Of a DNA stretch of 18,049 nucleotides, positions 902 to 16,577 are shown one piece after another. Source of the DNA: Desulfobacteraceae bacterium (lineage in GTDB: Bacteria; Desulfobacterota; Desulfobacteria; Desulfobacterales; SURF-15); NCBI GenBank assembly GCA_003599475.1, contig QZKK01000103.1, forward strand, positions 1 through 18,049. The letters run 5' to 3'. Every line of letters begins with the position of its first letter. Positions within the stretch are counted from its first letter, which is position 1. The position numbers and the translations under genes were made by a program. Below the pieces are notes generated by a model. The model had not been told where the DNA came from. It saw only the letters and a list, made by a program, of their open reading frames with translations, and did no database searches.

Positions 902-3019
902 ATGGATACCTTGATGGTCAAAGCAAGAAGCGGCTTTTTCAATGAAATCGTAAAGGATGCATCCGATATCGTCATGGTGCTGGCGGTCATCGGCATTCTG
1001 ATGGCGATGATTCTGCCGTTGCCGTCCGCCTTGCTCGACATATCGCTGGCCATGAACATCACGCTTTCGGTCATCGTCCTCATCACCGCGATGTACACGG
1101 TAAAGCCGCTTGATTTTTCCATATTCCCGTCGCTTCTTCTGGTGCTCACCCTGTTTCGGCTCTCCCTGAATGTCGCATCCACCCGTCTGATTCTGCTCCA
1201 CGGAGACGAAGGACCCCTTGCCGCCGGATCGATCATCCAGGCCTTCGGCATGTTCGTCGTCGGCGGAAATTTCGTAATCGGCATGATCATTTTCATGATC
1301 CTTGTCCTGATCAACTTTATCGTCATCACCAAAGGGTCCGGGCGTATTGCGGAAGTCGCCGCACGATTTCAACTGGACGGCATGCCCGGCAAGCAGATGG
1401 CCATCGATGCGGATTTAAACGCCGGCATCATCGACGAAACCGAAGCCCGCGAACGCAGGAAGGTGATTTCCATGGAGTCCGAGTTCCACGGAGCCATGGA
1501 CGGGGCGAGCAAATTCGTCCGCGGGGATGCCGTCGCCGGCATCATCATCACGGTAATCAACATCGTCGGCGGTTTCGTGATCGGAGTCCTGCAAAAAAAC
1601 ATGTCCGTCTTGGACGCCTTGGAAAACTACACCGTCCTGACGGTTGGAGACGGTCTGGTCACCCAGATTCCCGCCCTGATCGTATCGACGGCAGCAGGTC
1701 TTCTGGTTTCGAGGTCCGCCTCGGAAAACGCCATGGGAAAAGAGTTCGGCAAGCACATCTTTTCGAATCCGAATCCGATCTATATCGGTTCCGTTGTCGT
1801 ATTTCTCTTCGGTCTGGTGCCCGGGATGCCGACATTCCCATTCGTTGCCCTTTCCCTGCTGCTCGGCGGATCCGTTTACCTGTTCAGGCGCAATCGGGCT
1901 GCTGCTGAAAGCCTTCCGGCATCCGATTCGGCTTCCGAAGAAAAAACCGACTCGGCACCCGAGGATGTGGAGCATCTTCTTTCGGTCGATACGATGGAGC
2001 TCGAGGTGGGCTACGGGCTGATTCCGCTGGTGGATAAAGACCAGGACGGCAGCCTGCTCGGAAGAATCCGAGCCATCCGCAGGCAATTTGCCACCGAACT
2101 GGGGATCGTCATCCCCCCCATCCATATTCGGGATAATTTGAAGCTGAAACCGTCCGAATATCGGATGGTCATCAAAGGGGTGGAAATGGCTCGGAGTGAA
2201 CTGCTGGTGAACCATCTGCTGGCAATGGATCCGGGCGATGCCCAGCGCAAGATCGAGGGGATCGAAACGAAGGAACCGGCGTTCAATCTGCCGGCGATAT
2301 GGATTCCTAGGGAGCGGGAGGAGGAGGCCAAGTTTGCCGGCTATACCGTCGTCGATATTCCCACGGTCATCGCCACCCATCTGACGGAGATGATCCGAAG
2401 CAGCGCGGGCGACCTGATGGGAAGACAGGAGACCCAGCATCTGCTGGATCACATGGGCAAGACGCATCCGAAGGCGGTGGAAGAGCTGGTGCCTTCGCTG
2501 CTGTCTCTGGGGGCTGTGCAGAAGGTGCTGCAGAACCTGCTGAAGGAGCGGATCTCCATCCGTGATCTGCTCTCCATCATCGAATCCCTCGCCGACTACG
2601 CCACGATGACCAAGGATCCGGATCTGCTCACCGAATATGTCCGGCAGAAGCTGGCACGTTCGATCCTTGCCCCGTTTATTCAGGAAGGCGGGGTACTCAA
2701 TGTCATTCCGGTCGAACACGCCATCGAGGAGCTTTTTTCCAAGAGCATTCAGCGCTCCGATCATGGAGGGGTTCCGCCCATCGAACCTTCGGTGATCGCA
2801 ACGATTACTGCATCGATTCAGGATTCGGTTGAAAAGGCGAACATCATGAACATTCATCCCATCATCTTGTGCTCACCCGGGATTCGGCGGCATTTCAGAA
2901 AAATTGTCGAGCAGATCGATCCGTCGGTCATGGTGATTTCGCATGCGGAAGTCATGCAGAATGTTCGATTGCAATCGCGGGGAAAGGTAAGCCTGGCACA
3001 TGGCCATAAGGCGCTATAA
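902..3019 (+). CDS. flhA: Flagellar export gate protein FlhA
   Basis: FlhA forms the nonameric export gate of the flagellar type III secretion system. It couples proton flow to export and docks chaperone-substrate complexes. The 705-residue product has the normal family length. The N-terminal half is membrane-embedded (from about residue 22, DIVMVLAVIGILMAMILPLP, to about 330) and contains the conserved cytoplasmic FHIPEP loop at residues 155-175 (RFQLDGMPGKQMAIDADLNA...). The C-terminal cytoplasmic domain begins after an acidic linker near residue 345. The ATG at 902 has no convincing Shine-Dalgarno; ATG 914 and TTG 911 are alternatives. The frame is open upstream to base 785 but without ATG, GTG or TTG. 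The 3' end overlaps flhF by 20 bases, so the two are probably translationally coupled. Confidence 0.96.
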   Translation: MDTLMVKARSGFFNEIVKDASDIVMVLAVIGILMAMILPLPSALLDISLAMNITLSVIVLITAMYTVKPLDFSIFPSLLLVLTLFRLSLNVASTRLILLHGDEGPLAAGSIIQAFGMFVVGGNFVIGMIIFMILVLINFIVITKGSGRIAEVAARFQLDGMPGKQMAIDADLNAGIIDETEARERRKVISMESEFHGAMDGASKFVRGDAVAGIIITVINIVGGFVIGVLQKNMSVLDALENYTVLTVGDGLVTQIPALIVSTAAGLLVSRSASENAMGKEFGKHIFSNPNPIYIGSVVVFLFGLVPGMPTFPFVALSLLLGGSVYLFRRNRAAAESLPASDSASEEKTDSAPEDVEHLLSVDTMELEVGYGLIPLVDKDQDGSLLGRIRAIRRQFATELGIVIPPIHIRDNLKLKPSEYRMVIKGVEMARSELLVNHLLAMDPGDAQRKIEGIETKEPAFNLPAIWIPREREEEAKFAGYTVVDIPTVIATHLTEMIRSSAGDLMGRQETQHLLDHMGKTHPKAVEELVPSLLSLGAVQKVLQNLLKERISIRDLLSIIESLADYATMTKDPDLLTEYVRQKLARSILAPFIQEGGVLNVIPVEHAIEELFSKSIQRSDHGGVPPIEPSVIATITASIQDSVEKANIMNIHPIILCSPGIRRHFRKIVEQIDPSVMVISHAEVMQNVRLQSRGKVSLAHGHKAL

Positions 3020-4160
3020 AGCCCGGAGCATTCAGGAGGCCATCAGCCGGATCAAGGAGGATATCGGTCCGGATGCGATGATCCTTTCCACGCGCAGGCT
3101 TCCAAAAAGCGCCGATCACCGGAATCTTTTCGAAGTAACCGCCGCTCTGGAAAAACCGGCCGCCGTCGAGTTTCGCGACAGGCTTGAAGCGCAAGAGCCC
3201 TCCGTATCGAATCCCGGCAACCGGGAACCGGAGGACGGGTTCAGAGCCGGCAGGGGAGAATCGGACCGTTGCGGCACCCTGCGGGTCGATGATCTGAATG
3301 CAGGTCTATTCAGCATCAAAGACATGCTTCTCGTCATCGACCAGGGCGGCGGACTCCCGGAATTTCTGCAGCGGTTTCCGGAGAGCCTCAACTGGTACGC
3401 CAAGCTGGTCACAGCCGGAGTTTCGGAGCGCCAGGCACGAAAGATCATGATCCGGAGCCTGGAAAAGGCCCCTGCCCGGCCCCTGCCGATGGAGGAAATC
3501 ACGAAACGGGTCCTCAGGACGGTGTCGGGCATGATCCGAATCAGCGATCCGTTTTCGTCCCCGAACGGCAGCTCCCGCCTGTCTGCATTCATCGGACCGA
3601 CCGGGGTAGGAAAAACGACCACCATCGCCAAGCTGGCGGCGGTGTTGAGTCTTCAGCAGAAAAAAAGCGTCGGAGTGATCTCCGTGGACAGCTACCGTAT
3701 CGGGGGCGTCGATCAGCTCAGGACTTATGCCGGAATCATGGGGTTGCCCTGCCTTTCGGCATTCTCTCCTCGGGATCTCCAGACTGCGGTCGAGAAAATG
3801 CGGGACAAGGAGATCGTACTGATCGATACCGCCGGACGGAGCCATCTGGACAGGGACAGGATGATGGATCTGTGCCGGTTCATGCAGGGGAGCCTTCAAA
3901 TATCTTGTCACCTGGTCATGAGCGCAGCAACGGATCGAACCGATATGAGGGAGGTGGCCGATCATTTTTCGATGCTGAAGCCGCAGACCTGTGTGTTTAC
4001 CAAGCTGGACGAAACCCGGCGGAAAGGAGCGATGATCGATCAACTGGCCCTGATGAAGATGCCGATCTCCTATATTACAAACGGTCAGCGCGTGCCGGAG
4101 GATATTGTTTCCGCCAGCAGGAGGTCTGTTTTGAAGCTGGTCCTGAGCGGCCGGCCGTAG
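3000..4160 (+). CDS. flhF: SRP-type GTPase FlhF, flagellar placement factor
   Basis: FlhF is an SRP-family GTPase (relative of Ffh and FtsY) that fixes the site of flagellar assembly, usually a cell pole, working with FlhG. The product has 386 residues. An N-terminal basic region (MAIRRYKARSIQEAISRIKEDIG...DAMILSTRR) is followed by a variable acidic linker, an N-domain (about 100-180) and the G domain. The G domain shows the P-loop GPTGVGKTT at 199-207, the insertion-box stretch DSYRIGGVDQLRTYA at 230-244, DTAGR at 276-280 and the guanine-specificity motif TKLDE at 334-338. All GTPase motifs are intact. The start ATG lies inside flhA (20-base overlap) with a GGAAAGG-like ribosome site just upstream. 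An 11-base perfect tandem duplication follows its stop codon. Confidence 0.96.
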   Translation: MAIRRYKARSIQEAISRIKEDIGPDAMILSTRRLPKSADHRNLFEVTAALEKPAAVEFRDRLEAQEPSVSNPGNREPEDGFRAGRGESDRCGTLRVDDLNAGLFSIKDMLLVIDQGGGLPEFLQRFPESLNWYAKLVTAGVSERQARKIMIRSLEKAPARPLPMEEITKRVLRTVSGMIRISDPFSSPNGSSRLSAFIGPTGVGKTTTIAKLAAVLSLQQKKSVGVISVDSYRIGGVDQLRTYAGIMGLPCLSAFSPRDLQTAVEKMRDKEIVLIDTAGRSHLDRDRMMDLCRFMQGSLQISCHLVMSAATDRTDMREVADHFSMLKPQTCVFTKLDETRRKGAMIDQLALMKMPISYITNGQRVPEDIVSASRRSVLKLVLSGRP

Positions 4161-4171
4161 AAGAAGCCCAA

Positions 4172-4193
4172 ATTCCGATCAGATTCCGATCAG
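4172..4193 (+). repeat. 11-bp perfect tandem duplication after flhF
   Basis: ATTCCGATCAG occurs twice back to back (4172-4182 and 4183-4193) in the flhF-flhG spacer, 11 bases after the flhF stop codon. It is non-coding. A second, unrelated 11-bp tandem duplication overlaps the fliA stop codon. Confidence 0.9.
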
Positions 4194-4245
4194 ACGGATT
4201 CGATTAAGGGGGTCCCGATGATCTTGAATGCGAAGGAGTACAGCA

Positions 4246-5190
4246 GTGGATCAAGCAAGCAGCTTAAGAAGGATCATCAAAGAGAAGAGAGGCGTCCCGG
4301 CAGCACGGGGCGCAAATCACTCGGAACCCGCCGGTGCGCTCCCCCCCCGGGTGGTTTCGGTAACCAGCGGCAAGGGCGGGGTCGGAAAGACGCATATCGT
4401 GGCAAACCTGGCCGTAGCGCTTTCACGTCTGGGCAAAAGGATCCTCGTACTGGATGCGGACCTGGGGCTTGCCAATATCGATATCATCTTCGGGGTGCAC
4501 CCGGAATATAACATCGGAGATGTGGTCACCGGTGAAAAGACTCTTCCGGAGATCATCGTGGAGGGGCCTTCGGGTGTGCGGATCATTCCGGCGGGTTCCG
4601 GTTTCGTCAATCTGACACAGTTGACGGACGGGCAGAAGATGAGCCTTATGGGCGAGTTCGAAGCGCTGGAAGACAGATTCGACATGATGCTCGTCGATAC
4701 CTCCGCGGGCATTTCACAGAACGTGATCTATTTCAACCTTTCCGCCGATGACTGCATGGTTGTCGCCACCCCGGAGCCGACCTCCATCACCGACGCCTAT
4801 GCGGTAATGAAGGTCATGGGACTGCAACACGGCACCCGGTATTTCAAACTCCTGGTCAACATGGTCAAAGACGACAGGGAAGCCAAGGCAGTTTACGCCA
4901 ACCTGTGCCAGGCCACCGATCGGTTTCTGGAGGGAGTCGTCATCGAGTATGTCGGGTTCATTCCGCTGGACGATCTGGTCAGGAAGGCGGTCAAGCACAG
5001 GAAATCGATGATGGAAATGTATCCCGAAGCCGAGTTCAGCAAAGGCATCGAAAGAATCGCGGAAGAGCTTCTGGAGTGGCCGAGAACCATTGAATCGGAC
5101 GGAAATATCAAGTTTTTCCTCAAGCGGTACCTGGAGTTTCGCGCTGAAAACGACAAGAGCTGCCGAAGACTCCAATCGGGGGTTCTTTGA
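4246..5190 (+). CDS. flhG: MinD-like ATPase FlhG, flagellar number regulator
   Basis: FlhG (YlxH/FleN/MinD2) is a membrane-cycling ParA/MinD-family ATPase that stimulates FlhF GTPase activity and limits flagellar number. I chose the GTG at 4246 over the in-frame ATG at 4228. The GTG has a strong GAAGGAG ribosome site at 4232-4238 with 7-base spacing, and it gives the family's typical N-terminus, (M)DQASSLRR, whose DQAxxLR motif is the FlhF-activating peptide known for FlhG. The 314-residue product has the deviant Walker A motif SGKGGVGKT (KGGVGKT at 43-49), the switch region DADLGLANID (70-79) and Walker B DTSAG (151-155). The residue after KGGVGKT is His instead of the common T/S/N. It lies 85 bases after flhF and before fliA, the usual order. 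Confidence 0.94.
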   Translation: MDQASSLRRIIKEKRGVPAARGANHSEPAGALPPRVVSVTSGKGGVGKTHIVANLAVALSRLGKRILVLDADLGLANIDIIFGVHPEYNIGDVVTGEKTLPEIIVEGPSGVRIIPAGSGFVNLTQLTDGQKMSLMGEFEALEDRFDMMLVDTSAGISQNVIYFNLSADDCMVVATPEPTSITDAYAVMKVMGLQHGTRYFKLLVNMVKDDREAKAVYANLCQATDRFLEGVVIEYVGFIPLDDLVRKAVKHRKSMMEMYPEAEFSKGIERIAEELLEWPRTIESDGNIKFFLKRYLEFRAENDKSCRRLQSGVL

Positions 5191-5197
5191 GGTAAAC

Positions 5198-5343
5198 GTT
5201 CAGGGGTTCAAAGGTTCAAGGTTCAGAGGTTAAGGATTGCGCCGGTTTCCAGGTTTCAACTCAAAATACGAGGGGACATCAACAGCAATCATTGAGACCT
5301 AACCATTGAAATTACGCCAACGTTGAACCTTTGAACGCTGAAC
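5198..5343. repeat. GGTTCA-rich inverted repeat in the flhG-fliA spacer
   Basis: The left arm GTTCAG-GG-GTTCAAAGGTTCAA (5198-5219) is matched by the reverse-complement right arm TTGAACCTTTGAAC-G-CTGAAC (5323-5343). The core of 14 bases is perfect, and a further 6 pair after a 1-base length difference. The left arm continues into more degenerate GGTTCA units up to about 5233, and the right arm into CCCGGTGAACGGTT. The arms are separated by about 103 bases with no ORF. The iterated GGTTCA unit looks like a dispersed intergenic repeat (REP/MITE-like) rather than a terminator; that reading is inference. Confidence 0.75.
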
Positions 5344-5436
5344 CCGGTGAACGGTTACGGTTTGACTTCATGATCCTTTCCGTGTTTGCGAGCCTGACGG
5401 CTGAACGATTAAAAAGCGAAAAGAGACGGGAATCAA

Positions 5437-6210
5437 ATGCATACCGCACAAAAATCGGCAAAAAATGATGAGAAGAAGGCTTTTCGGGGCTTCAACCGGA
5501 AGGAACGCGAGGCCATGATCGTCGGGTATGCCCCCCTGGTCAAACACATCGCCGGCCGGATGGCCATGCGAATTCCTTCCAGCATTTCTTTTGACGAGTT
5601 GATCAGTGCCGGCTGTCTTGGCCTGATCGATGCCATCGACCGATTCGACCCCACAAAAGAGGTCGACCTGAAGACCTATGCAGCCTACCGGATCAAGGGG
5701 GCCATTCTGGACGAGCTCCGCAGCATGGACTGGTATTCCCGATCCATGAGGAAAAAAATCCAACAGATCGAAAAGGCTTTGTCGGCTGTGGAATCGCGCG
5801 AGGGCAGGCCCGCCGAAGATTGGGAAGTGGCAAAGGAGATCGGAATGGAGTTGGACGATTACTGCAAGCTGCTTTCCAACATACACGGCATCGGGCTCTT
5901 CAGCCTTGACGAGTACATAAAGGATGAAGACAACGATACCCTGACCAAGAAATCTTTTCAGGAAAGGGTCCTGAGCGAGGATGATCCGGCCCAGAACGTG
6001 GTCAACAATGAAATGAGGAAGTATCTTGCAGAGGCCGTCAAAACACTTTCCGAAAAGGAGCAGATGGTTGTCTCGTTCTACTATTTCGAGGATCTCACCT
6101 TGAAGGAGATCGGGCACATCCTCGATCTTACGGAGTCGAGAATATGTCAGATCCACACCCTCGCCCTGATCAAGTTGAGGTCGAGGCTCAAAGGCTATCA
6201 CAGAGCCTGA
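5437..6210 (+). CDS. fliA: Flagellar RNA polymerase sigma factor FliA (sigma-28)
   Basis: FliA directs RNA polymerase to late flagellar and chemotaxis promoters once the hook is complete and FlgM is exported. The 257-residue product has region 2 at about 25-98 (LVKHIAGRMAMRIPSSISFD, DELISAGCLGLIDAIDRFDP, TYAAYRIKGAILDELRSMDW). Region 3 follows at about 105-160, and region 4 at about 196-252 contains the helix-turn-helix LTLKEIGHILDLTESRICQIH. GLIDAIDRFDP and DELRSMDW are FliA hallmarks. Length and domain order are normal. The ATG at 5437 has a purine-rich upstream sequence (AAGAGACGGGAA). A 246-base spacer with repeats separates it from flhG, so it may have its own promoter, but I could not point to a convincing one. 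No che genes lie between flhG and fliA. Confidence 0.96.
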   Translation: MHTAQKSAKNDEKKAFRGFNRKEREAMIVGYAPLVKHIAGRMAMRIPSSISFDELISAGCLGLIDAIDRFDPTKEVDLKTYAAYRIKGAILDELRSMDWYSRSMRKKIQQIEKALSAVESREGRPAEDWEVAKEIGMELDDYCKLLSNIHGIGLFSLDEYIKDEDNDTLTKKSFQERVLSEDDPAQNVVNNEMRKYLAEAVKTLSEKEQMVVSFYYFEDLTLKEIGHILDLTESRICQIHTLALIKLRSRLKGYHRA

Positions 6211-6224
6211 GAGGAGCCTGAGAG
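6203..6224 (+). repeat. 11-bp perfect tandem duplication across the fliA stop codon
   Basis: GAGCCTGAGAG is repeated directly (6203-6213, 6214-6224); the first copy contains the fliA TGA. The second copy forms the left part of a hairpin (6214-6230). Confidence 0.9.
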
Positions 6225-6230
6225 AGGCTC
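6214..6230 (+). promoter_or_regulatory. Small hairpin covering the ribosome site of the FliL-like gene
   Basis: GAGCCT (6214-6219), loop GAGAG, AGGCTC (6225-6230) form a perfect 6-bp stem four bases after the fliA stop. It has no T-run, so it is not a typical terminator. It would hide the AGAGAGG sequence (6221-6227) that could serve ATG 6236. The GGAG at 6232-6235, which could serve ATG 6245, stays free. A translational effect is inference. Confidence 0.45.
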
Positions 6231-6235
6231 CGGAG

Positions 6236-7006
6236 ATGCAGCCCATGCCGATCGAAAAAGAAGCGGAATTTGTTTCTCAGGAAGAAATCGACCGTCTTCT
6301 CGGAGATGAGGACGCTCCCGAATCGAAAGCGATTCCCGAACAGTCGGAAAATCGGGCTTCGTTAAAATCCCATGCCGGGCAAGAGGCGCCGGCGGAAATC
6401 CCTCTCGCCGATGCCCCTGCAGGGAAGGATGCAGATGAATCGGCGAAAACCTTTGCCGACAGGGTTGTTTTGGAAGAAGTCCCCCGGGAGACGATCGCTC
6501 GACCGCCGGTTTGCAGAAACAGATGGTCTCCCGGCAGGGAATTTTGGATCGCCGCATCGATGGCGGTGATTTTGGGAATGGCCGTAAACGCTTTTTTATG
6601 GGCGAACAGCCGGGAAATCCGGCACCCGGGCAAACCGGAAGTTTCGACTTTTCCAGTTGTAAACATTCCGGATGCTCAGCTTCCCGCTTCGCTCAGGATA
6701 TCCCCCCTCTCATTTGACCTGAAAGGGTTCCTTGTTTCGGCACCCGCGGACCGCAAGGATTTAGCCTACATCACCGTCGATGTATCCGTCGAGCTGACCA
6801 ACGCAAAGGCCGTGTCCCTGATTAAAGCGCACACCGCTTTTTACCGAAATATCATATATGAAGCGATACGGGGCCTTCTGAAATCGATCGACAAGGCAAA
6901 TTTCAATGAAATCAGTCTAAAGCTGGAGATTCTCAAGGCGGTGAACAGATCTTTTCCGGAGCGAGCCGTCCGGGATATCGTCGTGGATGCACTTGTCGTG
7001 TATTGA
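6236..7006 (+). CDS. FliL-like membrane protein with FliM-type CheY-binding motif
   Basis: The 256-residue product has three parts. The cytoplasmic N-terminal segment (1-103) is acidic and low in complexity and carries VSQEEIDRLLG at residues 13-23, nearly identical to the LSQEEIDALL peptide at the start of FliM that binds phosphorylated CheY. A single membrane helix spans about 104-123 (FWIAASMAVILGMAVNAFLW). The periplasmic part, from about 155 to 256, resembles FliL: hydrophobic LKGFLVSAP strand, ITVDVSVEL strand, a helix with YRNIIYEAIRGLLKS, then LKLEILKAVNRSFPERAVRDIVVDALVVY. FliL-family proteins encircle MotAB stators and support torque. ATG 6245, nine bases after GGAG, is an alternative start. 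It directly follows fliA. The FliL assignment is by pattern only; the combination with a FliM-like peptide is unusual. Confidence 0.7.
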   Translation: MQPMPIEKEAEFVSQEEIDRLLGDEDAPESKAIPEQSENRASLKSHAGQEAPAEIPLADAPAGKDADESAKTFADRVVLEEVPRETIARPPVCRNRWSPGREFWIAASMAVILGMAVNAFLWANSREIRHPGKPEVSTFPVVNIPDAQLPASLRISPLSFDLKGFLVSAPADRKDLAYITVDVSVELTNAKAVSLIKAHTAFYRNIIYEAIRGLLKSIDKANFNEISLKLEILKAVNRSFPERAVRDIVVDALVVY

Positions 7007-7038
7007 ATGCTTAGGAGAGCGCCAAAGGAGTATCGGCC

Positions 7039-7353
7039 ATGACGACCCTTTCGGATGTCAATATCATCGTCCAGCAAAGCGGCAGGGCGAAAGCCGCCCA
7101 GAACATCCTTCACGCCGTTCAGGAGCAAAGTCAATTGGCGGCAGGGCAGCAGAGGGTAAGAGAACAGGCGCAGCGGTCAACGATTCAGAACTCCGAAGAT
7201 TCAAAGCCCGCCCAATTGAAGAAAAAACCGGACGATAAAGAGTCGGATAAAAGGAAAGAGCGTCGAAGCGCAAAAGGGGGAGGCAACCCGCCGGCGGAGG
7301 ATGCTGCGGTCAAACCCCGAAGCCGCGGAAAATTCGTGGATACGGTGGCATAG
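7039..7353 (+). CDS. Small charged protein of unknown function in flagellar operon
   Basis: I do not recognise this 104-residue protein. It has a good AAAGGAG ribosome site (7024-7030) eight bases before its ATG and sits 32 bases after the FliL-like gene and 5 bases before the next gene, so it is very probably real. Residues 12-50 look helical and Gln/Ala-rich. Residues 55-80 are highly basic and acidic (KPAQLKKKPDDKESDKRKERR) and probably disordered. The last ten residues (SRGKFVDTVA) form a compact tail that could be a docking motif. There is no signal peptide or membrane segment, so it should be cytoplasmic. Its place between two membrane proteins of the flagellar operon suggests a motility role, but nothing in the sequence states one. 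Confidence 0.75.
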   Translation: MTTLSDVNIIVQQSGRAKAAQNILHAVQEQSQLAAGQQRVREQAQRSTIQNSEDSKPAQLKKKPDDKESDKRKERRSAKGGGNPPAEDAAVKPRSRGKFVDTVA

Positions 7354-7358
7354 AGATC

Positions 7359-7859
7359 ATGGAGATGTTTACCGTCGAATTCTGGGTCGCTTTTCAAATG
7401 CTGATCGACCTGGTGCTGATCCTCACAGTTCTCTATTTTCTCCGAAGTCATCGGAGTCCGCCCGACGATGCCTCGAAAGAGAGCGCAGGAAAGATCATCG
7501 GGATGATCGAGCCTCTGCTGAAAGAGGCCGATGCAACCGCCAAAGCCTTTGAAAATCAGCTCAAGGAGAAGAATCGACTCATCCGAAGCCTCAACGAGAC
7601 CCTGGACAGTCGGATCATCAGCCTCAATCTGCTCGTCGGCCGGGCGGAAACGTGCCTGGGCGGATCGGTCCCGGGCGCCGGGGCGAAAAACGATGTCTAC
7701 GATCAGCAAAAGGCTGTCCTCGCTCTTTTCGATCAGGGCCTCGATTCGGATGCCGTGGCGCAAAGGCTTTCCATGCCAAAGAGAGAAGTCGATATGGTAT
7801 TCGAGCTCAAACGGAAGTTTTTGAAACTGGAGCGGGACATCCCGAATCCGGGAGCATAG
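7359..7859 (+). CDS. SwrB/DUF2802-like single-pass membrane protein
   Basis: The 166-residue product begins with one membrane helix (about 8-28, FWVAFQMLIDLVLILTVLYFL). A cytoplasmic coiled coil follows (about 41-95), then a C-terminal helix-turn-helix-like module (about 116-152, QQKAVLALFDQGLDSDAVAQRLSMPKREVDMVFEL). This architecture matches SwrB of Bacillus, which activates type III export in the basal body, and the DUF2802 proteins found in gammaproteobacterial flagellar clusters. The final module looks like a HTH but, on a membrane anchor, is more likely a protein-binding element. As with swrB after sigD, it lies downstream of the fliA gene. ATG 7359 has only a weak ribosome site. Homology to SwrB is inferred from architecture and gene position, not from alignment. 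Confidence 0.65.
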   Translation: MEMFTVEFWVAFQMLIDLVLILTVLYFLRSHRSPPDDASKESAGKIIGMIEPLLKEADATAKAFENQLKEKNRLIRSLNETLDSRIISLNLLVGRAETCLGGSVPGAGAKNDVYDQQKAVLALFDQGLDSDAVAQRLSMPKREVDMVFELKRKFLKLERDIPNPGA

Positions 7860-7862
7860 TTC

Positions 7863-7878
7863 GGGTTGCGGGTAACCC
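7863..7878 (+). promoter_or_regulatory. Short hairpin abutting the FliK-like start codon
   Basis: GGGTT (7863-7867) pairs with AACCC (7874-7878) across a six-base loop, ending directly before the ATG at 7879. It would occlude the GCGGG sequence that is the only ribosome-site candidate. It is short and may be chance. Confidence 0.3.
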
Positions 7879-8985
7879 ATGAACCTCGGCATTTCTCAGA
7901 TCATCGCTTTCGGTTCGGAAATCCAGGTGGAAGACAAAGGTGTTCCCCCCGGCCGCGTGCTTTCCGGCCTCGGCAAGGGTCAGATCGTTGAAGCCGAGGT
8001 CGTTCGCAGCATTTCTCCCAGGCAGGTGCTCCTGAAGATGAAGGGAAAAACCTTCTCTGCGCACACCTGCATCCCATTCAAGCCGGGCCAGAAAATCTCG
8101 CTTCGGGTGACCCACACCGGATCCCGACCCGGATTTCAATATGTTGAAACCAGAGGGGGCAGTTTCCTGCAACTGCCTCCCGATTGCTTTTCGGACTTTC
8201 GCCGTCTCTGCCCTTACGGCGCCCTCGGCAAGCTGCTGCGGAACTTGAAGAGTCAGCCGGAGACCCCCCTGGCAAGAGCCGCCCTGATATCGATCGAGCG
8301 CCTGGTCAAGGCGATCGCTCCGGAATCCGATGTTGCGGATCCCGACCGGACTCGAGGATTCGTCCGGAATAGCGGTCTGACCTGGGAGCACAAGCTGCTT
8401 TCGGTCATCGAAGCGAAAAGGAGCCTGCCGCAGCCTTTCCTGCAGCGGTTCATCGAAGGAGATCTGAAAGGCCTCTCCCTGCTTCTCATGCAAAACGCCG
8501 AAAAGGAAGATTTCGGGGGAATCAACGATCTTCATCTTCTATTAGAAAACATCGAGCGGCTCCAGGTTTTGAATCACCATGCTTCGAAGGAATCCGCTCG
8601 GTTTCTGGTTCCGGTTCCCGTCCTGTTTGACAGGGACATTCGATTCGGTCAGGTGCTGGTCGATCTCGGGAGCAGATCGTCCGGACCGGGGGAGGATCGA
8701 ATCATCCGGGTATCGCTTCTATTGGAGATGTCCGGATTGGGAAATCTGCAGGTGGATCTTTCCATCCTCAAGGGCGCAATCACCGGTCTTTTCAGCGTTC
8801 AGGACGATTCGTCCCGGCTGCTGATCGAATCCCAAATGCCGCATCTGCTGGAAAGACTGCAAAAGTCAGGCTTTATCGTCCACGACATGAGCTGCCGGAC
8901 GGTGGGGCACGAGGCGCTTTCCTCAGCCTCGCTGGCAGACCGGATGATCGAGGACCATCCGGGCGTTCTCAGCATCCTGGTCTAG
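7879..8985 (+). CDS. FliK-like flagellar hook-length control protein (probable)
   Basis: The 368-residue product has an N-terminal beta-rich segment (about 27-90: LGKGQIVEAEVVRSISPRQV, ...PFKPGQKISLRV). This type recurs in FliK-like proteins of deltaproteobacteria. A helical middle follows, and a C-terminal region (about 243-343) resembles the FliK C-terminal domain: FLVPVPVLFD, then RIIRVSLLLEMSGLGNLQVDL, SVQDDSSRLLIESQMPHLLERLQKSG. The strand 'LLLEMSGLGNLQVDLSI' corresponds to the LxLxPxxLGxVxVxL core of FliK, although the canonical Pro is replaced by Ser. FliK is an exported molecular ruler that triggers the FlhB switch; FlhB is also in this operon. It is the last gene of the flagellar run. 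The call rests on pattern likeness and context; another FliK may exist elsewhere. Confidence 0.55.
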   Translation: MNLGISQIIAFGSEIQVEDKGVPPGRVLSGLGKGQIVEAEVVRSISPRQVLLKMKGKTFSAHTCIPFKPGQKISLRVTHTGSRPGFQYVETRGGSFLQLPPDCFSDFRRLCPYGALGKLLRNLKSQPETPLARAALISIERLVKAIAPESDVADPDRTRGFVRNSGLTWEHKLLSVIEAKRSLPQPFLQRFIEGDLKGLSLLLMQNAEKEDFGGINDLHLLLENIERLQVLNHHASKESARFLVPVPVLFDRDIRFGQVLVDLGSRSSGPGEDRIIRVSLLLEMSGLGNLQVDLSILKGAITGLFSVQDDSSRLLIESQMPHLLERLQKSGFIVHDMSCRTVGHEALSSASLADRMIEDHPGVLSILV

Positions 8986-9061
8986 TTTTTCACCGAATAA
9001 GCGCTTGCGGATTCCCCGCCTCTCGTGATACAAAACCGATTTTGGTGCAATCATCATTTGA

Positions 9062-9877
9062 ATGCAAACGGAATCGGACATGTATCAGGATACGGTTCGC
9101 ATCCTTTGGAATCATCAGATCGGCCCGGGTTATTTTCAGATGGGGGTGACATGCCGCCCGAAGTATGCTGCATCCGTACCCGGACAGTTCGTCATGCTGA
9201 AACTTCCGGATCAGATCACGCCCCTGCTGCGAAGGCCCTTTTCCATTCACGGACTTCTCTCAAGCAGCGGGAGAGTCTTCGGACTGGAGATTTTGTACAA
9301 GGTCGTCGGGGAGGGGACTCGGAAATTTTCGCGCTGCCGGGAGGGGGAAACCCTCGACCTGATCGGACCACTGGGAAATGGATTTACCGTCTCCGGGAGT
9401 GAACGCCGGATATTCATGGCCGCAGGCGGGATCGGAGTGGCTCCGATGCGGTTTTTAGCTGAGTTTCTCACCGAGAAAGGCTTCGACCCCTCGGCGGTCA
9501 CCCTTTTCTTGGGAGGGCGTTCCAGGGGAGATCTGTTGTGCAAGGAGGCGTTTGCCGATCTGGGGATTAGCGTCTTTACAACCACAGACGACGGATCTGA
9601 AGGCGATAGATGTTTTGTCACCCATCCCTTGGCAGCCGCTGTGCGACAGTCCCCGCCCGATCGGTTGTATGCATGCGGGCCGTCGGATATGCTCCGGTGT
9701 GTCATCGACCTGGCCGAGGCCCGGGCGGTGCCCTGTGAGATATCCCTCGAGAGTGCGATGGCTTGCGGCGTCGGCGCCTGTCTGGGATGCGCCGTCGCGA
9801 ATCGACGTGCAGACGGAAGCTACTTTCATGCGTGCATCGACGGCCCGGTTTTCGATTCGAAATCCATTGCGCTCTGA
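9062..9877 (+). CDS. pyrK: PyrK-type FAD/[2Fe-2S] electron-transfer subunit
   Basis: PyrK transfers electrons from dihydroorotate dehydrogenase B (PyrD) to NAD+ in pyrimidine synthesis. The 271-residue product shows an FAD-binding beta-barrel with PGQFVML (40-46) and RRPFSIHG (57-64), and an NAD-binding domain with AAGGIGVAPMRFLAE (120-134) and ACGPSDML (204-211). A C-terminal [2Fe-2S] cluster is bound by Cys 235, 240, 243 and 258 (MACGVGACLGCAV then HACIDGPVFD), the spacing expected for PyrK. ATG 9080 (MYQDTV...) is an equally good start; a GGAAT-like ribosome site precedes it. pyrD, usually adjacent, is not in the window. The neighbours are a flagellar gene and the atp operon. A related electron-transfer flavoprotein with another partner is possible, but the C-terminal motif fits PyrK best. 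Confidence 0.85.
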   Translation: MQTESDMYQDTVRILWNHQIGPGYFQMGVTCRPKYAASVPGQFVMLKLPDQITPLLRRPFSIHGLLSSSGRVFGLEILYKVVGEGTRKFSRCREGETLDLIGPLGNGFTVSGSERRIFMAAGGIGVAPMRFLAEFLTEKGFDPSAVTLFLGGRSRGDLLCKEAFADLGISVFTTTDDGSEGDRCFVTHPLAAAVRQSPPDRLYACGPSDMLRCVIDLAEARAVPCEISLESAMACGVGACLGCAVANRRADGSYFHACIDGPVFDSKSIAL

Positions 9878-9883
9878 GTCGAT

Positions 9884-9895
9884 ACCGGATCCGGT
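9884..9895. promoter_or_regulatory. 12-bp perfect palindrome upstream of the atp promoter
   Basis: ACCGGATCCGGT is a perfect palindrome lying four bases upstream of the proposed -35 hexamer (9900). The position suits an activator or operator site. It could also be a short hairpin after pyrK or chance. Confidence 0.35.
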
Positions 9896-9899
9896 CAAT

Positions 9900-9929
9900 T
9901 TGGCATTGACTTGCCCGAAAACCTATGAT
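9900..9929 (+). promoter_or_regulatory. Sigma-70-type promoter of the atp operon
   Basis: TTGGCA (9900-9905, 5 of 6 consensus) and TATGAT (9924-9929, 5 of 6) are separated by 18 bases. Transcription would start near 9936. This supports the atpZ start at 9986, because a start at 9950 would leave a leader of only about 14 bases. Confidence 0.65.
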
Positions 9930-9985
9930 AGTGGGCTTGCGGGCGTGAAATGGGCGATTTATTCGTTTCGGGTCCCGATAGCACG

Positions 9986-10204
9986 ATGAAAAGAGAGACC
10001 AGGCGGCAGCTCAGACAACTGGCGTATTTCAGCAGCCTCGGTTTTTCCATCGCGCTTTCGATTGTCATTGGATTGGCGATCGGGGTCTATCTGGATAAGG
10101 TGTTTCATACGGCACCGTATCTGACGCTTTTCTTTCTCGTCCTGGGGGTGATTGCCGCTTTCCGGAACATCGCCCTGGCCATCCAGAAAAGCAGAAAGCT
10201 ATAA
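9986..10204 (+). CDS. atpZ: AtpZ/AtpI-family F0 accessory protein
   Basis: This short two-helix membrane protein belongs to the ATPase_gene1 (AtpZ) type encoded at the head of F0 clusters. It is thought to help with c-ring assembly or with Mg/Ca supply. From ATG 9986 it has 72 residues: a basic start (MKRETRRQLRQL), first helix about 13-36 containing SLGFSIALSIVIGLAIGVYLD, a short loop with TAPYLT, and a second helix about 45-66 (LFFLVLGVIAAFRNI). These are family traits. An in-frame ATG at 9950 adds 12 residues that do not look conserved (MGDLFVSGPDST) and lies too close to the proposed transcription start. It is followed after 10 bases by atpI. Confidence 0.85.
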   Translation: MKRETRRQLRQLAYFSSLGFSIALSIVIGLAIGVYLDKVFHTAPYLTLFFLVLGVIAAFRNIALAIQKSRKL

Positions 10205-10214
10205 AGGCGTGTTG

Positions 10215-10613
10215 ATGCAATACCCGGTTAATATTCAGGAGCGGCTCTTACGATTTGTCCTCCGATCCAACTGGATCCTTTTTGGGGCGGCAAGCCTGTT
10301 CGGATTCTATCTTGCCTCTTCCCATGTCACCAAAGGGATCGTTTGCGGCGGCCTGATCGTCAGCCTCAATTTCCACCTGATGTATCGCACCCTGAAGAAG
10401 GCGTTGACGCCGCCGCATCTTTCGTCGCATGCCGCCCTGATGGCAAAATCGTATGTAAGATTTCTGATCAGCGGCGCCGTCATTTTCATGCTGATCTCCA
10501 GGGGGTATGTGCATCCCCTGGGACTTTTCATCGGACTTTCGATCGTGGTTGCCAGTATTCTTGCAGGCACCCTCTATGAATTGAAGCGAATGATATGTGA
10601 GGAGGCGGTCTAA
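10215..10613 (+). CDS. atpI: ATP synthase subunit I (AtpI-like membrane protein)
   Basis: This F0 assembly factor belongs to the ATP-synt_I type, implicated in c-ring assembly. The 132-residue product begins at ATG 10215, seven bases after AAAGG (10203-10207). It has four predicted membrane helices: SNWILFGAASLFGFYLAS, VTKGIVCGGLIVSLNFHLMY, a third around YVRFLISGAVIFMLISRG and a fourth around LGLFIGLSIVVASILAGTLYE. The Asn in SLNFHL is commonly conserved. The frame is open further upstream within atpZ, but those residues overlap the atpZ end and do not look like AtpI. It ends one base before the GTG of atpB, so the two are tightly coupled. Confidence 0.85.
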   Translation: MQYPVNIQERLLRFVLRSNWILFGAASLFGFYLASSHVTKGIVCGGLIVSLNFHLMYRTLKKALTPPHLSSHAALMAKSYVRFLISGAVIFMLISRGYVHPLGLFIGLSIVVASILAGTLYELKRMICEEAV

Positions 10614-10614
10614 A

Positions 10615-11304
10615 GTGGTACATCCATACCTTTTTTTCGTTAAAGTTTTCGAATGGATCGGTCTGGGCTCTTTTGCGCATCACTACCCGCATGTGATCTA
10701 TTCATGGGTGGTCATGCTTCTTCTGATCGTCTCCGGCTCGATCGCTGCAAAGAAAACCAGCCTGATTCCGACCGGCGCTCAGAACTTCTTCGAGGTGATC
10801 ATTGCCGGTATCGAAGATTTCATGGTGGATATCACCGGAGAGGAGGGCCGATGGTTTCTTCCGGTGGTGGCCACCATCTTCATCTATATTCTCACCTGCA
10901 ACCTGCTGGGGCTTGTGCCCGGATTCTTTCCTCCGACGGCAAGCTTGAACACCACGGCATCCTGCGCCTTGACGGTCTTTGTCTTTACTCACTATATCGG
11001 GCTCAAGTACCATGGAGCCAAATACATCAAACACTTTTTGGGCCCGATCTGGTGGATGGTGCCCATCATCTTTCCGATAGAAGTGATCGCCCATTTTGCG
11101 AGGGTCCTGTCGTTGTCTTTCCGGCTTTTCGGCAACATGATGGGGCACGAGCTTGTGCTGGGGATTCTCTTCTTCCTGGCGGGGGCGTTTTTCGCGCCGC
11201 TGCCGATCATGGCGCTCGGGATCTTTGTTGCCCTGGTGCAGGCCTTTGTTTTCTTCCTGCTGTCCATCATTTATTTCAGCGGCGCCATGGAGCATGCGCA
11301 CTAA
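10615..11304 (+). CDS. atpB: F0F1 ATP synthase subunit a
   Basis: Subunit a forms the two ion half-channels beside the c-ring in F0. I chose GTG 10615: it has a perfect AGGAGG (10600-10605) at nine-base spacing and gives the usual N-terminus (M)VHPYLFF. An in-frame ATG at 10597 lies inside atpI and before the ribosome site. The 229-residue protein is all membrane helices after the N-terminus. The essential arginine is in SLSFRLFGNMMG (Arg 170, equivalent to E. coli Arg 210), followed by His 178-Glu 179. The last helix has VQAFVFFLLSIIYFS with Gln 209 matching E. coli Gln 252. NLLGLVPG at about 96-103 is also typical. The 177-base gap to atpE is longer than the other gaps in this operon. Confidence 0.96.
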   Translation: MVHPYLFFVKVFEWIGLGSFAHHYPHVIYSWVVMLLLIVSGSIAAKKTSLIPTGAQNFFEVIIAGIEDFMVDITGEEGRWFLPVVATIFIYILTCNLLGLVPGFFPPTASLNTTASCALTVFVFTHYIGLKYHGAKYIKHFLGPIWWMVPIIFPIEVIAHFARVLSLSFRLFGNMMGHELVLGILFFLAGAFFAPLPIMALGIFVALVQAFVFFLLSIIYFSGAMEHAH

Positions 11305-11400
11305 ACGACTTACTTGTCAATGCCGGAATCGAGACTGTGTCCATTCGTTTCGGGTCAGCTGGAGAGAAGCCGGAGAGATCTGGGATACAGTAAACGGTTG

Positions 11401-11766: not shown

Positions 11767-11789
11767 TAATCCCCTGCAATCGAATCTTT

Positions 11790-11828
11790 CTGCAGGGTTG
11801 CACCCTTTCTATGGGTGCAACCCTGCAG
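11790..11828. terminator. Perfect 16-bp stem-loop between convergent atpE and uvrA
   Basis: CTGCAGGGTTGCACCC (11790-11805) and its exact reverse complement (11813-11828) flank a seven-base loop (TTTCTAT). It lies 23 bases after the atpE stop. The uvrA stop codon (11809-11811) is in the loop, so the right arm encodes the last UvrA residues. Neither side has a clear T-run, so it may act as a bidirectional or processing stem rather than a classic intrinsic terminator. Confidence 0.8.
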
Positions 11829-14685
11829 AGCCTCTCTTCTCCAGCTCTTCACGATCCATCCGCCGCCGCGGCCGGAGGACGCGCTTCAGATACTGGCCGG
11901 TGTAGGATTCGGAAATTTCGGCGATTGCCTCCGGTGTGCCGCATCCGACGACATGCCCGCCGCGGCTTCCCCCTTCCGGGCCGAGATCGATGATGAAGTC
12001 GGCGGTTTTGACGATATCCAACTGGTGCTCGATGATGATCACGGTGTTTCCCGCATCGACGAGCCGGTTGAGCACCAGAAGAAGCTTTTGGATGTCGTCC
12101 GCGTGAAGTCCGGTGGTCGGTTCATCCAGAATATAGAGCGTATTGCCGGTCCCCTTTTTGCTCAGTTCACGCGCCAACTTGATTCGCTGGGCTTCGCCGC
12201 CGGAAAGGGTCGTTGCCGGCTGCCCCAGGCAGATGTACCCGATGCCGACATCGACCATGGTTTCCAGCTTGATCCGAATCTGGCCGATGTTTCCGAAAAA
12301 CTGCATGGCCTGCTGGACGGTCATGCCGAGAACCTCAGAGATGTTTTTCCCCTTGTATTTTACTTCGAGTGTTTCCCGGTTGTATCGTTTGCCGCGGCAG
12401 ACGTCGCAGGCAACGTAGACATCGGGCAGAAAATGCATCTCGATTCGGATGATTCCCTCACCCTGGCAGGCCTCGCACCGGCCGCCCTTGACGTTGAAGC
12501 TGAACCGGCCGGGACCGTAGCCTCGCACGCGGGAATCCGGCGTTTTCGCGAACAGTTCCCGGATGGTGCCGAATACGCCGGTATAGGTGCCGGGATTCGA
12601 GCGCGGGGTTTTTCCGATCGGGGACTGGTCGATGTGGATCGCCTTGTCGAGATGCTCGAGTCCGCTCAACTCGCTGTATGCGCCGGCTGAGGTGCGGGTG
12701 CGGTAGAGCTTTTGCGCGATCGCCCGATACAGGGTTTCAAGGACAAGGGTCGATTTCCCCGATCCCGATACTCCGGTGACGCAGATGAAGCATCCGAGGG
12801 GAAATTCGACGTCGATGCCCTTCAGGTTGTTTGCGGAGGCTCCTCTGACGGTAACACGGCGGCCGCTGCCGGAACGCCTCCTTGCCGGTATTTCGATCCG
12901 CTTCCGGCCGGAAAGATACTGTCCGGTAAGGGAAGTTTCATGTTTCAAAAGGGCGTCGGGAGGACCTGAAAAAACGACTTGCCCGCCGTTTACTCCCGCG
13001 CCCGGACCCATTTCAATGACATGGTCGGCTTCAAGAATCGTATTCTCGTCATGTTCTACGACAAGAACGGTGTTTCCGATGTTGCGCATCTGGAGCAGGA
13101 TCTCGATCAGCCGTCGGTTGTCTCTCGGGTGCAGCCCGATGCTCGGCTCATCCAGGACATAGAGGACTCCGGTCAGCTTGGAGCCGATCTGGGTGGCGAG
13201 TCGGATTCTCTGGCTTTCTCCGCCGGAGAGGGTGGAGGCAGGCCTGTCCAGCGTCAGGTAAGACAGGCCGACGTTTTGGAGAAAGTCGAGCCTTTCCAGG
13301 ATCTCCCTCTGAATCCGCTCCGCTATGGTTTTCGATTTTCCCTCCAGCGGCAGCCGCCGGAAAAAGGCGTGCGAATCGGCAACCGGCAGGGAGGCGATCT
13401 CGTGGATGGAAAGGTTTCCGACGCGAACGGCCCTGCTCTGCGGATTGAGTTTGATCCCGGAACAATCGGGACAGGGGCGCGAATTCATGAATCCTTTGAT
13501 CTCTTCGCGGACCGGGTACGAATCGGTTTCAACATAACGCCGCTCCAGAGTGGGAATGATTCCCTCATAGGGCTTTTCATGGATGGTGCGGCGTCCGTTC
13601 CGTTCAAAATAGAACCGGATCTTCTCCTCCCCGGACCCGAATAAAAGGACCTTTTTGAACGAATCGGACAGGTCCGCGTAGGGGGTGTGAATATCGGTGC
13701 CGTAGTGGCCGGTCAACGCATCCAAAAACTCGAAAAAGTAAACCGAGTTCCGTTTCGCCCACGGCGCAACGGCACCCTCTCTCAACGAGAGGTGAGGATT
13801 CGGCACGATGAGTTCCGGATCAAAGGCGCTGATTGCGCCCATGCCGTCGCATGTCTTGCAGGCTCCATGCGGGGAGTTGAAAGAAAAACTCGCCGGGGTC
13901 AACTCCGGGTATCCGGCGCCGCAGCCCGAACATACGGCCCTTTCGCTGAAGCGCAACGGCTCCATCCCTTCGATATCGATGCTCACGAATCCGTCCGAGA
14001 GCGACAACGCCAATTCCAGGGAATCCGCCAATCGGTTGCGGATGGAATCCTTGACGATCAATCGGTCCACCACAGCTTCGAGGGTGTAGGTTTTTTTGGG
14101 GTCGAGCCTGCCGACCGATTCGATTTCATGAATGCGTCCGTCGATGCGGACTCGTGCAAAGCCGTCTCTCTTGAGCCTGCGGATCAGCGGGTCGTGATTC
14201 CCGGCCTGTCCGGTCACTAGAGGAGACAGGATGATGATCTTTGACTGAGGGGGGAGCGATAGGACGGCATCGACCATCTGATCGACAGTCTGGGATGTGA
14301 TCCGCTGTCCGCAGCGGTGGCAGAACGGGGTGCCGATCCGGGCAAAGAGCAGACGCAGGTAGTCGTAAACTTCGGTTACCGTCCCTACCGTAGAGCGCGG
14401 GTTGTGAGCGGCGGTCTTCTGCTCGAGAGCGATCGCGGGAGAAAGCCCTGTGATTGTATCGACGTCCGGTTTATCCATCTGTTCCAGGAACTGACGGGCA
14501 TAGGTTGAAAGCGATTCCACGTATCGCCGCTGGCCTTCGGCATAAAGGGTGTCGAATGCAAGAGTCGATTTTCCCGATCCGGAAAGGCCGGTCACGACAA
14601 CAAGGCGGTTTCGGGGGACATCCACATCGATATTTTTCAGGTTGTGCTGTCTTGCCCCGCGAATGATGATCTTTTCGGCTTCCAT
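11809..14685 (-). CDS. uvrA: Excinuclease ABC subunit A
   Basis: UvrA is the damage-sensing ATPase of nucleotide excision repair. It works as a dimer with UvrB, to which UvrC is then recruited. The 958-residue product is complete and of usual length (E. coli 940). It has two ABC ATPase halves. The first shows Walker A GLSGSGKST (33-41), zinc module Cys 252/255/276/279, signature LSGGESQRI (486-494) and LDEPS. The second has GVSGSGKST (638-646), zinc module Cys 737/740/760/763, signature LSGGEAQRI (827-835) and LDEPTTGLHADD. All catalytic and zinc motifs are intact. The start MEAEKIIIRGARQHNLKN is typical. The basic C-terminal tail is encoded partly within the stem-loop shared with the atpE end. 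It reads away from dnaA, with a separate promoter in the intergenic region. I saw no obvious E. coli-type LexA box. Confidence 0.98.
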   Translation of the reverse strand: MEAEKIIIRGARQHNLKNIDVDVPRNRLVVVTGLSGSGKSTLAFDTLYAEGQRRYVESLSTYARQFLEQMDKPDVDTITGLSPAIALEQKTAAHNPRSTVGTVTEVYDYLRLLFARIGTPFCHRCGQRITSQTVDQMVDAVLSLPPQSKIIILSPLVTGQAGNHDPLIRRLKRDGFARVRIDGRIHEIESVGRLDPKKTYTLEAVVDRLIVKDSIRNRLADSLELALSLSDGFVSIDIEGMEPLRFSERAVCSGCGAGYPELTPASFSFNSPHGACKTCDGMGAISAFDPELIVPNPHLSLREGAVAPWAKRNSVYFFEFLDALTGHYGTDIHTPYADLSDSFKKVLLFGSGEEKIRFYFERNGRRTIHEKPYEGIIPTLERRYVETDSYPVREEIKGFMNSRPCPDCSGIKLNPQSRAVRVGNLSIHEIASLPVADSHAFFRRLPLEGKSKTIAERIQREILERLDFLQNVGLSYLTLDRPASTLSGGESQRIRLATQIGSKLTGVLYVLDEPSIGLHPRDNRRLIEILLQMRNIGNTVLVVEHDENTILEADHVIEMGPGAGVNGGQVVFSGPPDALLKHETSLTGQYLSGRKRIEIPARRRSGSGRRVTVRGASANNLKGIDVEFPLGCFICVTGVSGSGKSTLVLETLYRAIAQKLYRTRTSAGAYSELSGLEHLDKAIHIDQSPIGKTPRSNPGTYTGVFGTIRELFAKTPDSRVRGYGPGRFSFNVKGGRCEACQGEGIIRIEMHFLPDVYVACDVCRGKRYNRETLEVKYKGKNISEVLGMTVQQAMQFFGNIGQIRIKLETMVDVGIGYICLGQPATTLSGGEAQRIKLARELSKKGTGNTLYILDEPTTGLHADDIQKLLLVLNRLVDAGNTVIIIEHQLDIVKTADFIIDLGPEGGSRGGHVVGCGTPEAIAEISESYTGQYLKRVLRPRRRMDREELEKRGSAGLHP

Positions 14686-15077: not shown

Positions 15078-15230
15078 AGGCCCAACAGTTCTGGAGAGGC
15101 AGCTACCACCTAGTGTTCAAAATGCAATAACCATTCCATATTGCTGTTTATAGTCGCTATCCTGTATTTTTATGTGTCATCGGGGGGTTTCGAGAAGAAT
15201 TATACAGTTCTTTCAAGCGGAAAGATAGTT

Positions 15231-16577
15231 ATGGAGACAATTTGGGCGAAGGCAAAAGCGGCGATCAAAGAACGCGTTCCGGGGCATAGCTATCGGATGT
15301 GGATCGAGCCTCTGAGACTTCAAACCTGTCAGGCAGATCGGTTCGTTCTGTCGACGCCGAACTACTTTTCCAAAAAACGCGTTCACAGCCAATACGGGCC
15401 GCTGATCGAAGGGGAGGTTTGCAAGGCTTTCGGAAAGCCCTGCTGCGTCCTGATCGAGGTTTCCCTCCAGCAAGAACCGGCAGAGAGCATGGAGGCGGGG
15501 ACCGATCGCCAGATCCCTCTTCCGAGCATCAACCTTCAACCCCATGCCGGCAGGATGTTGAGAAGGAATTTTACCTTCGACCATTTCGTTGTCGGGGGCA
15601 ACAACGATTTCGCCTATTCAGCGGCAGTTTCCATGGCATCACAGAAAAACTGCCAGCAGAATACTCTTCTGCTCATCGCAAACCCGGGAATGGGGAAAAG
15701 CCACCTGTCTCAGGCGGTCGGACACCACATCCTGTGTGAGTTTCCCAACGAACGGGTCTATTACATCACCGCAGAAGATTTTACCAATGAGATGGTCTAT
15801 TCCTATCGCAATGGTTCCATCGATAAATTCAAGGAGAAATACCGCTCCCAATGCGATGTCCTGTTGCTCGAAGACATCCATTATCTGACCGGAAAGGAGC
15901 GGACCCAGATCGAGCTTTCCTTGACGCTCGACTGTCTCCTCAACGCCAGCAAGAAACTGATTTTCACGAGCTGCTACCTGCCCTCCGATATTCCCAAATT
16001 GCACGATCAATTGAAGTCGAGGCTTTTAAGCACGCTGATTTCCAACATGGAACCACCCAATTTCAGAACCCGGGTGCGCATCCTGCAGAAAAAGTCGCTG
16101 GACAATGGAATCGAAATCCCCGAGGAGGTGACTCAGTACCTGGCAGGAGAGCTTTCCGAGAATGTACGCCAGCTTGAAAGCGGATTGATCGGGGTTGCCG
16201 CCAAGTCTTCCCTGCTGAGCAAACCGATCGATCTGAAGCTGGCCCAGAGCGTCGTCCAAAATATTTCCAACAAAAGCAAACTGATTACGATCGAGAGCAT
16301 CAAAAAGCTCGTCTGCAAGCACTGCAACATATCCGCCGAGGATTTGGTTTCGAATTCAAGGAAGCATTCGGTCGTCAGGCCTCGCCAGATTGCCATCTAT
16401 CTTTCCAGGAAGTTTACCGATCAGCCGCTTCAGGCTATCGGAAAAAGCTTCAACCGGTATCATGCCACCGTTCTGCATTCAATCGGATTGGTGGAGCGGG
16501 AGATCAGGACAAACGGCACAATGCGGGAGCAGATCAAATATCTCTGCAAGAAATTGGATTCGGGTAATTTCCAGTAG
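15231..16577 (+). CDS. dnaA: Replication initiator DnaA with divergent DNA-recognition motif
   Basis: DnaA is the AAA+ ATPase that binds and opens the replication origin. ATG 15231 gives 448 residues starting METIWAKAKAAI, with GGAAAGA upstream; an in-frame ATG at 15141 adds an unlikely hydrophobic extension. Domain I (1-78) has HSYRMWIEPL, and linker II is short (about 79-110). Domain III (about 111-345) has Walker A ANPGMGKS (150-157, Ala in place of the first Gly), Walker B LLLEDI (211-216), the LKSR arginine finger region (261-264) and sensor 2 NVRQLESGL (311-319). Domain IV (about 350-448) has RPRQIAIYLSRKFT. The recognition motif, normally F-G(G)-RDHTTV, reads FNRYHATV (407-414). It lies convergent to a dnaB-containing operon. 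It could be the sole initiator or a diverged paralogue. Confidence 0.9.
   Translation: METIWAKAKAAIKERVPGHSYRMWIEPLRLQTCQADRFVLSTPNYFSKKRVHSQYGPLIEGEVCKAFGKPCCVLIEVSLQQEPAESMEAGTDRQIPLPSINLQPHAGRMLRRNFTFDHFVVGGNNDFAYSAAVSMASQKNCQQNTLLLIANPGMGKSHLSQAVGHHILCEFPNERVYYITAEDFTNEMVYSYRNGSIDKFKEKYRSQCDVLLLEDIHYLTGKERTQIELSLTLDCLLNASKKLIFTSCYLPSDIPKLHDQLKSRLLSTLISNMEPPNFRTRVRILQKKSLDNGIEIPEEVTQYLAGELSENVRQLESGLIGVAAKSSLLSKPIDLKLAQSVVQNISNKSKLITIESIKKLVCKHCNISAEDLVSNSRKHSVVRPRQIAIYLSRKFTDQPLQAIGKSFNRYHATVLHSIGLVEREIRTNGTMREQIKYLCKKLDSGNFQ

Follow-up and report, generated by a model that had tools for sequence, protein, structure and literature searches.

Do chemotaxis signals enter the flagellar motor at the rotor switch alone, or can they also act at the stator? 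Phosphorylated CheY (CheY-P) is thought to reach the motor via FliM and FliN (PMC6700473) and binds the FliM N-terminus (PMC6700473; PMC9126983), for which the consensus LSQXEIDALL is given (PMC6700473); these and the other papers cited below are drawn upon in excerpt. FliL rings encircle stators (PMC9195833). The question is raised by a gene, referred to here as X, whose product carries a FliM-type peptide ahead of a transmembrane helix and a FliL-like domain. The window, i.e. the whole stretch of DNA analysed, comprises 18,049 nt from Desulfobacteraceae bacterium (GCA_003599475.1, contig QZKK01000103.1, positions 1-18,049, forward strand). Its features are as follows.

4228..5190, + strand: flhG (ParA/MinD matches; best PDB match FleN 5j1j), whose product has DQASSLR near the N-terminus, in agreement with the DQAxxLR activator motif
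5437..6210, + strand: fliA, directly upstream of X (sigma-70 domains; conserved order)
6236..7006, + strand: gene X, fliA-linked FliL-like protein of 256 aa (ORF; FliL domain; conserved synteny)
6272..6304, + strand: putative FliM-type docking peptide VSQEEIDRLLG, residues 13-23 (FliM-matrix score; homologue conservation; predicted helix 15-23)
6305..6457, + strand: acidic linker, residues 24-74 (low model confidence, presumably disordered; length differs among homologues)
6458..6484, + strand: another conserved motif of the cytoplasmic tail, DRVVLEEVP, at residues 75-83 and of D-x-V-I-L-E type (homologue columns)
6536..6616, + strand: transmembrane helix, residues 101-127 (structure model)
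6701..7003, + strand: periplasmic FliL-like domain, residues 156-256 (Pfam PF03748 below cut-off; fold match to 7sgn and 6ahq)
7039..7353, + strand: small ORF that follows X and precedes the DUF2802-like gene, without a Pfam match (recognised at this position in 16 of 21 loci)
7359..7859, + strand: DUF2802-like, perhaps FipA-like, protein (weak PF10975 match, E 0.013, below cut-off)
11809..14685, - strand: uvrA, ordinary by Pfam
15141..16577, + strand: dnaA, ordinary by Pfam

Architecture and gene neighbourhood of X

The original prediction for this DNA described VSQEEIDRLLG at residues 13-23, an acidic linker, a transmembrane helix and a FliL-like periplasmic domain, and the ORF, the structure model, Pfam and fold comparison bear out this arrangement. 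The model has a single long helix, at residues 101-127, and the periplasmic domain has the stomatin-like FliL fold, matching the structures 7sgn and 6ahq. PF03748 scores slightly below its cut-off on X (E 1.5e-4; 22.6 bits against 24.6). The same family is annotated in the database for the homologue P0003, scores 47.6 and 51 bits in the fliA-linked relatives L102 and L107 and 17.4-20.8 bits in P0028, P0029 and P0005, and has no match in P0021. No match for X was found in NCBIfam or PHROGs, and a PDB sequence search with X gave a single match, to a ribosomal protein, at E 1. By analogy with FliL, and from the acidic tail, the N-terminus of X would lie inside the cell.

A FliL gene commonly stands beside fliM or motAB, a position that is not strictly defining (PMC9195833). 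Compared with FliL (PF03748, a stator-associated ring protein), X differs in being encoded behind fliA, between fliA and the small and DUF2802-like genes, instead of with fliM or motAB, and it adds a long acidic cytoplasmic tail with one or more putative docking motifs. The recurring order is flhB-flhA-flhF-flhG-fliA-X-small ORF-DUF2802-like-fliK-like. Among 21 loci, 17 reach fliA and X is the next matched gene in all 17, while the other four end inside X at a contig end; the DUF2802-like gene was matched in 19. FipA, a DUF2802 protein, is described as encoded just downstream of a flhA-flhF-flhG-fliA-chemotaxis operon (PMC11620751). Of the 21 loci, the one with the gene order closest to the window is that of G064; its X gene (L067) falls into two ORFs, through either a frame break or an assembly error. 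A misread ordinary FliL is ruled out, since G001 has a separate fliL upstream of fliM elsewhere in its genome.

Conservation and copy number of the motif

Two protein searches returned 19 homologues of X (P0002-P0020), of which 17 hold at least one motif copy by the counting regex and P0015 holds two; the motif is absent from P0018, which has an unrelated N-terminus with the precomputed domain PF00496, and from P0020, which is labelled partial. The motif is retained while the linker drifts: in the alignment excluding P0002, P0018 and P0020, 9 of 10 motif columns have one residue in at least 90% of sequences, compared with 0 of 51 linker columns. When named genomes were scanned, one locus was obtained, L001 from Desulfobacteraceae bacterium 4572_130, whose protein (9158-10294) has two copies and the same gene order as the window.

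Across 24 X sequences, from 23 genomes and the window, the number of copies ranges from 1 to 14, the window having one, and the tails are acidic (20-39% D+E). A third protein search added ten array proteins of 6 or 7 copies each. One of them is P0028 from Desulfatiferula olefinivorans, with 519 aa and 7 copies; its low-confidence model (mean pLDDT 53.7) has one short helix per copy plus three others, a helix like a TM segment and an end that resembles FliL.

The tail holds a second conserved element. In 17 homologues, 8 of the 9 columns of DRVVLEEVP reach 90%, and of 26 motif-bearing X proteins, 19 have a D-x-V-I-L-E motif just ahead of the transmembrane helix (0.56 expected). The 16 fliA-linked proteins without the docking motif, some of which have short tails, lack D-x-V-I-L-E at this juxtamembrane place; L090, one of the motif-less proteins, has TVILG farther upstream.

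Likeness of the peptide to FliM

The identification of the peptide as FliM-type stands. The window sequence VSQEEIDRLL fits the LSQxEIDALL consensus, and on a matrix built from 46 FliM-type N-termini (29 from order FliM loci and 17 from the phylum whose sequences resemble FliM) it scores 21.6, the next-best site in the window protein scoring 2.4 and the lowest training peptide 35.8. At a threshold of 16, the matrix finds 168 sites in the X proteins, covering all 24, whereas the controls give 0.3 sites for shuffled X and a single site for the other ORFs from the window and 20 loci, 177,466 residues in total; these control ORFs are stop-to-stop frames of at least 100 aa in six frames and therefore include false genes. 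The corresponding counts for X, shuffled X and other ORFs are 190, 1.5 and 16 at a threshold of 12, and 212, 8.4 and 35 at a threshold of 8. The best site per X protein ranges from 17.2 to 35.2 (median 31.2), in every case below the FliM training minimum.

The counting regex gives 144 copies in the 24 X sequences, with 0.013 expected by shuffling. The shuffles, at 0.013 for the regex and 0.3 for the matrix, rule out that any acidic tail suffices. Of the 144 copies, 93% have I, V or L ahead of SQ, a position that the regex leaves free and that holds L in order FliM loci read with a looser regex; because Q is fixed and other positions are restricted in the counting regex, the profile of the copies is independent only outside those positions. 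The FliM regex fixes L, Q and EVD, and the looser reading is the better source for FliM peptides. The X motifs favour DDID (DDID or EEID) whereas 29 order FliM peptides have xEVD; EID occurs in two other order FliM proteins, those of G037 and G070. This conserved sequence difference would be a point against a shared ligand.

A strict DNA pattern found 37 sites in 7 of 10 X genomes, with none for the reversed pattern; 35 lie in known X genes and two on a second G069 contig, at the start of the same gene. As all 37 belong to X, the possibility that the motif is simply common in these genomes is ruled out. Among 395 phylum genomes the pattern matched 94 (reversed control, 1 match), and more than three sites occur in G021 alone, where they form an array in the X gene. 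A further 29 phylum matches were inspected: 17 are FliM N-terminus-like, 2 FliY-like, 4 zinc-ribbon-like with the motif C-terminally placed, and 6 apparently unrelated.

In other phylum genomes, a zinc-ribbon-like protein with Cys-x-x-Cys pairs and a C-terminal VSQDDIDALFGG-type peptide lies near the locus centre in L227, L228, L229 and L232. It is possibly a further CheY-docking protein.

X shares with the FliM CheY-P docking peptide its sequence, a predicted helix and a disordered attachment; it differs in that its version is placed on a membrane FliL domain and occurs in as many as 14 copies in relatives. FliY, with an EIDAL peptide, CheC and FliN-type domains, is a flagellar protein other than FliM that has such a peptide. 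FliY is a C-ring protein with neither a transmembrane helix nor a FliL domain, unlike X. The C-terminal helix of CheZ, a short SQ..[IV]D.L[LF]-like sequence, binds the same CheY face as the FliM-type peptide, and differs from the X peptide in being C-terminal and on a phosphatase; no paper giving the CheZ peptide letters was found among the literature matches listed.

Occurrence in the order and phylum

The order sample consists of 96 genomes of the order of 4572_130. Profile searches matched 22 and 37 of these genomes, the 37 including ordinary FliL, and FliM was found in 53. The motif-bearing gene follows fliA, or has the same downstream arrangement where the contig begins inside the gene, in 25 order genomes, one of which (G049) has a contig with the X tail only. 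In five others (G040, G042, G068, G086 and G095) the fliA-linked FliL-like gene lacks the motif; the reading past fliA covered part of the 53 FliM-positive genomes, so 25 and 5 are counts among those examined. One profile (A3) missed G021 and G049, and both were found by the pattern or by reading past fliA. No FliL-like gene was matched after fliA in G013, where a CheY-like gene follows, or on the short contig of G065; the G084 stretch stops before fliA and holds no FliL-like gene.

The FliL-like profile gave 63 matches in the 395 phylum genomes. Thirty loci were inspected, many of them ordinary fliL preceding fliM, and 11, from genomes outside the 96-genome sample, have a FliL-like gene that is linked to fliA and lacks the motif. 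Conservation of the motif together with the transmembrane and FliL parts therefore holds among the close homologues and in the 25 order genomes, and fails in five order genomes and 11 other loci; the motif is a feature of one branch among the FliL-like proteins linked to fliA, not of all.

The original prediction had allowed that CheY input at this protein might act in place of the C-ring switch. Replacement is unlikely because 29 of 30 order FliM loci retain their own SQ-x-EVD-x-LL-like peptide (in the remaining one, L160, no FliM peptide was found).

CheY, FlhG and other candidate partners

A CheY match at E<=1e-25 is present in 20 of 22 X genomes, G001 and G081 being the exceptions, and, once G021 (75%) and G035 are added, a full-length match with 60-75% identity in 19 of 24. 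The match is poor in G079 (40% identity, besides a 73% fragment spanning residues 2-41) and in G003 (52%; G003:C218:19682-20038, interrupted by two TAG codons in frame). Of the 24 X genomes, 22 gave a CheA match. A close CheY was not found in G001 (best E 2.6e-17, in a longer ORF), G081 (1.5e-21) or G035 (5.7e-17), nor CheA in G001 or G003, which both retain X; genome completeness is not given, so these absences weigh little. The G064 CheY gives a good alignment with CheY of known structure from enterobacteria and Vibrio, including the alpha4-beta5-alpha5 part. In 7 of the 11 motif-less phylum loci a cheY gene separates fliA from the FliL-like gene; these insertions favour CheY as the ligand and are not decisive. 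None was found there in the window or the motif-bearing loci searched, a point against CheY docking.

The earlier alternative of a FliM/FliN-interacting partner finds a concrete form in FlhG. The peptide would then dock this MinD-like ATPase, not CheY, and X would be a membrane FlhG receptor at the motor or pole that competes with FliM and helps to set flagellar number, placement or C-ring assembly. We regard this as unlikely, but as a serious rival because FlhG is also reported to bind the peptide-bearing N-termini, in monotrichous bacteria that of FliM and in the Bacillus group the first 36 residues of FliY (PMC12826062; PMC12327844, in excerpt), and because flhG is a constant neighbour, lying near X wherever the locus extends to it and in the order flhF-flhG-fliA-X in all 17 loci reaching fliA. 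The downstream DUF2802-like gene adds to the case, since FipA (DUF2802) recruits FlhF (PMC11620751), as does the retention of X in the two genomes without a CheA match, one of which (G001) also keeps the FliM peptide. The adjacency of flhG is, however, alike in loci with and without the motif and so leaves the motif unexplained, and cheY between fliA and the FliL-like gene is not predicted. At the FliY-binding residues given for Geobacillus FlhG, K177, R207 (also printed 277) and F215 (PMC12826062; PMC12327844), the window FlhG aligns K, N and F, one being changed, if an offset of 8 is assumed.

Docking of CheY could also serve as a sink, in which arrays keep CheY-P off FliM and damp or shorten the signal with no delivery to the motor. 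The motif evidence is the same as for docking at the stator, and up to 14 copies per chain could titrate CheY-P, but a soluble protein would do equally well, the fusion to a transmembrane helix and FliL domain is left unexplained, and the window X has a single copy. This reading is more doubtful than FlhG docking. Binding of another partner, such as some other receiver domain or, by direct contact, components of the C-ring, with a convergent likeness to FliM, would fit the consistent DDID against xEVD difference, the scores below the FliM training set and the juxtamembrane D-x-V-I-L-E motif, but is very improbable given that the likeness reaches the flanking position left free by the regex and that high matrix scores are almost confined to X.

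Proposed role of X

Activated CheY docking at the stator is the likeliest role of X, and the view that X is a second FliL whose tail docks CheY-P near the rotor-stator interface is slightly favoured over its negation. This second FliL is encoded behind fliA instead of ahead of fliM, and the periplasmic domain is most probably either a part of the FliL ring that encircles active stators or a similar structure. The tail in the cytoplasm would present a FliM-type amphipathic docking helix, one in the window and up to 14 in relatives, binding CheY-P through the alpha4-beta5-alpha5 face of CheY. Tethered to the membrane beside the C-ring, such tails could keep activated CheY near the rotor-stator interface, from where it may be passed to FliM or may bias stator engagement directly.

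A further-reaching form of this proposal is more tentative. A ring of FliL paralogues per stator, in one order related to sulfate reducers, would act as a CheY-P antenna by placing tens to more than 100 docking helices in the rotor-stator gap; besides the C-ring, the targets of chemotaxis would then include the stators or the supply of CheY-P nearby, and motif copy number would set the gain. No report of a FliL with FliM-type motifs was found among the matches listed in the open-licence literature, mostly titles and abstract openings; a literature search with the motif letters gave only apparently unrelated papers, and neither CheY nor FliL occurs in the main text of the D. vulgaris CheA3 paper.

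The FliM-type peptide on a FliL-family tail suggests that there may be an unrecognised place for chemotaxis signals to reach the motor. If true, a stator-ring protein with its own docking peptide arrays would be a new chemotaxis input point at the motor and could account for the tuning of speed or switching gain in some bacteria. The natural range of 1-14 copies, together with a named species, Desulfatiferula olefinivorans, with 7 copies, would offer a simple test bench.
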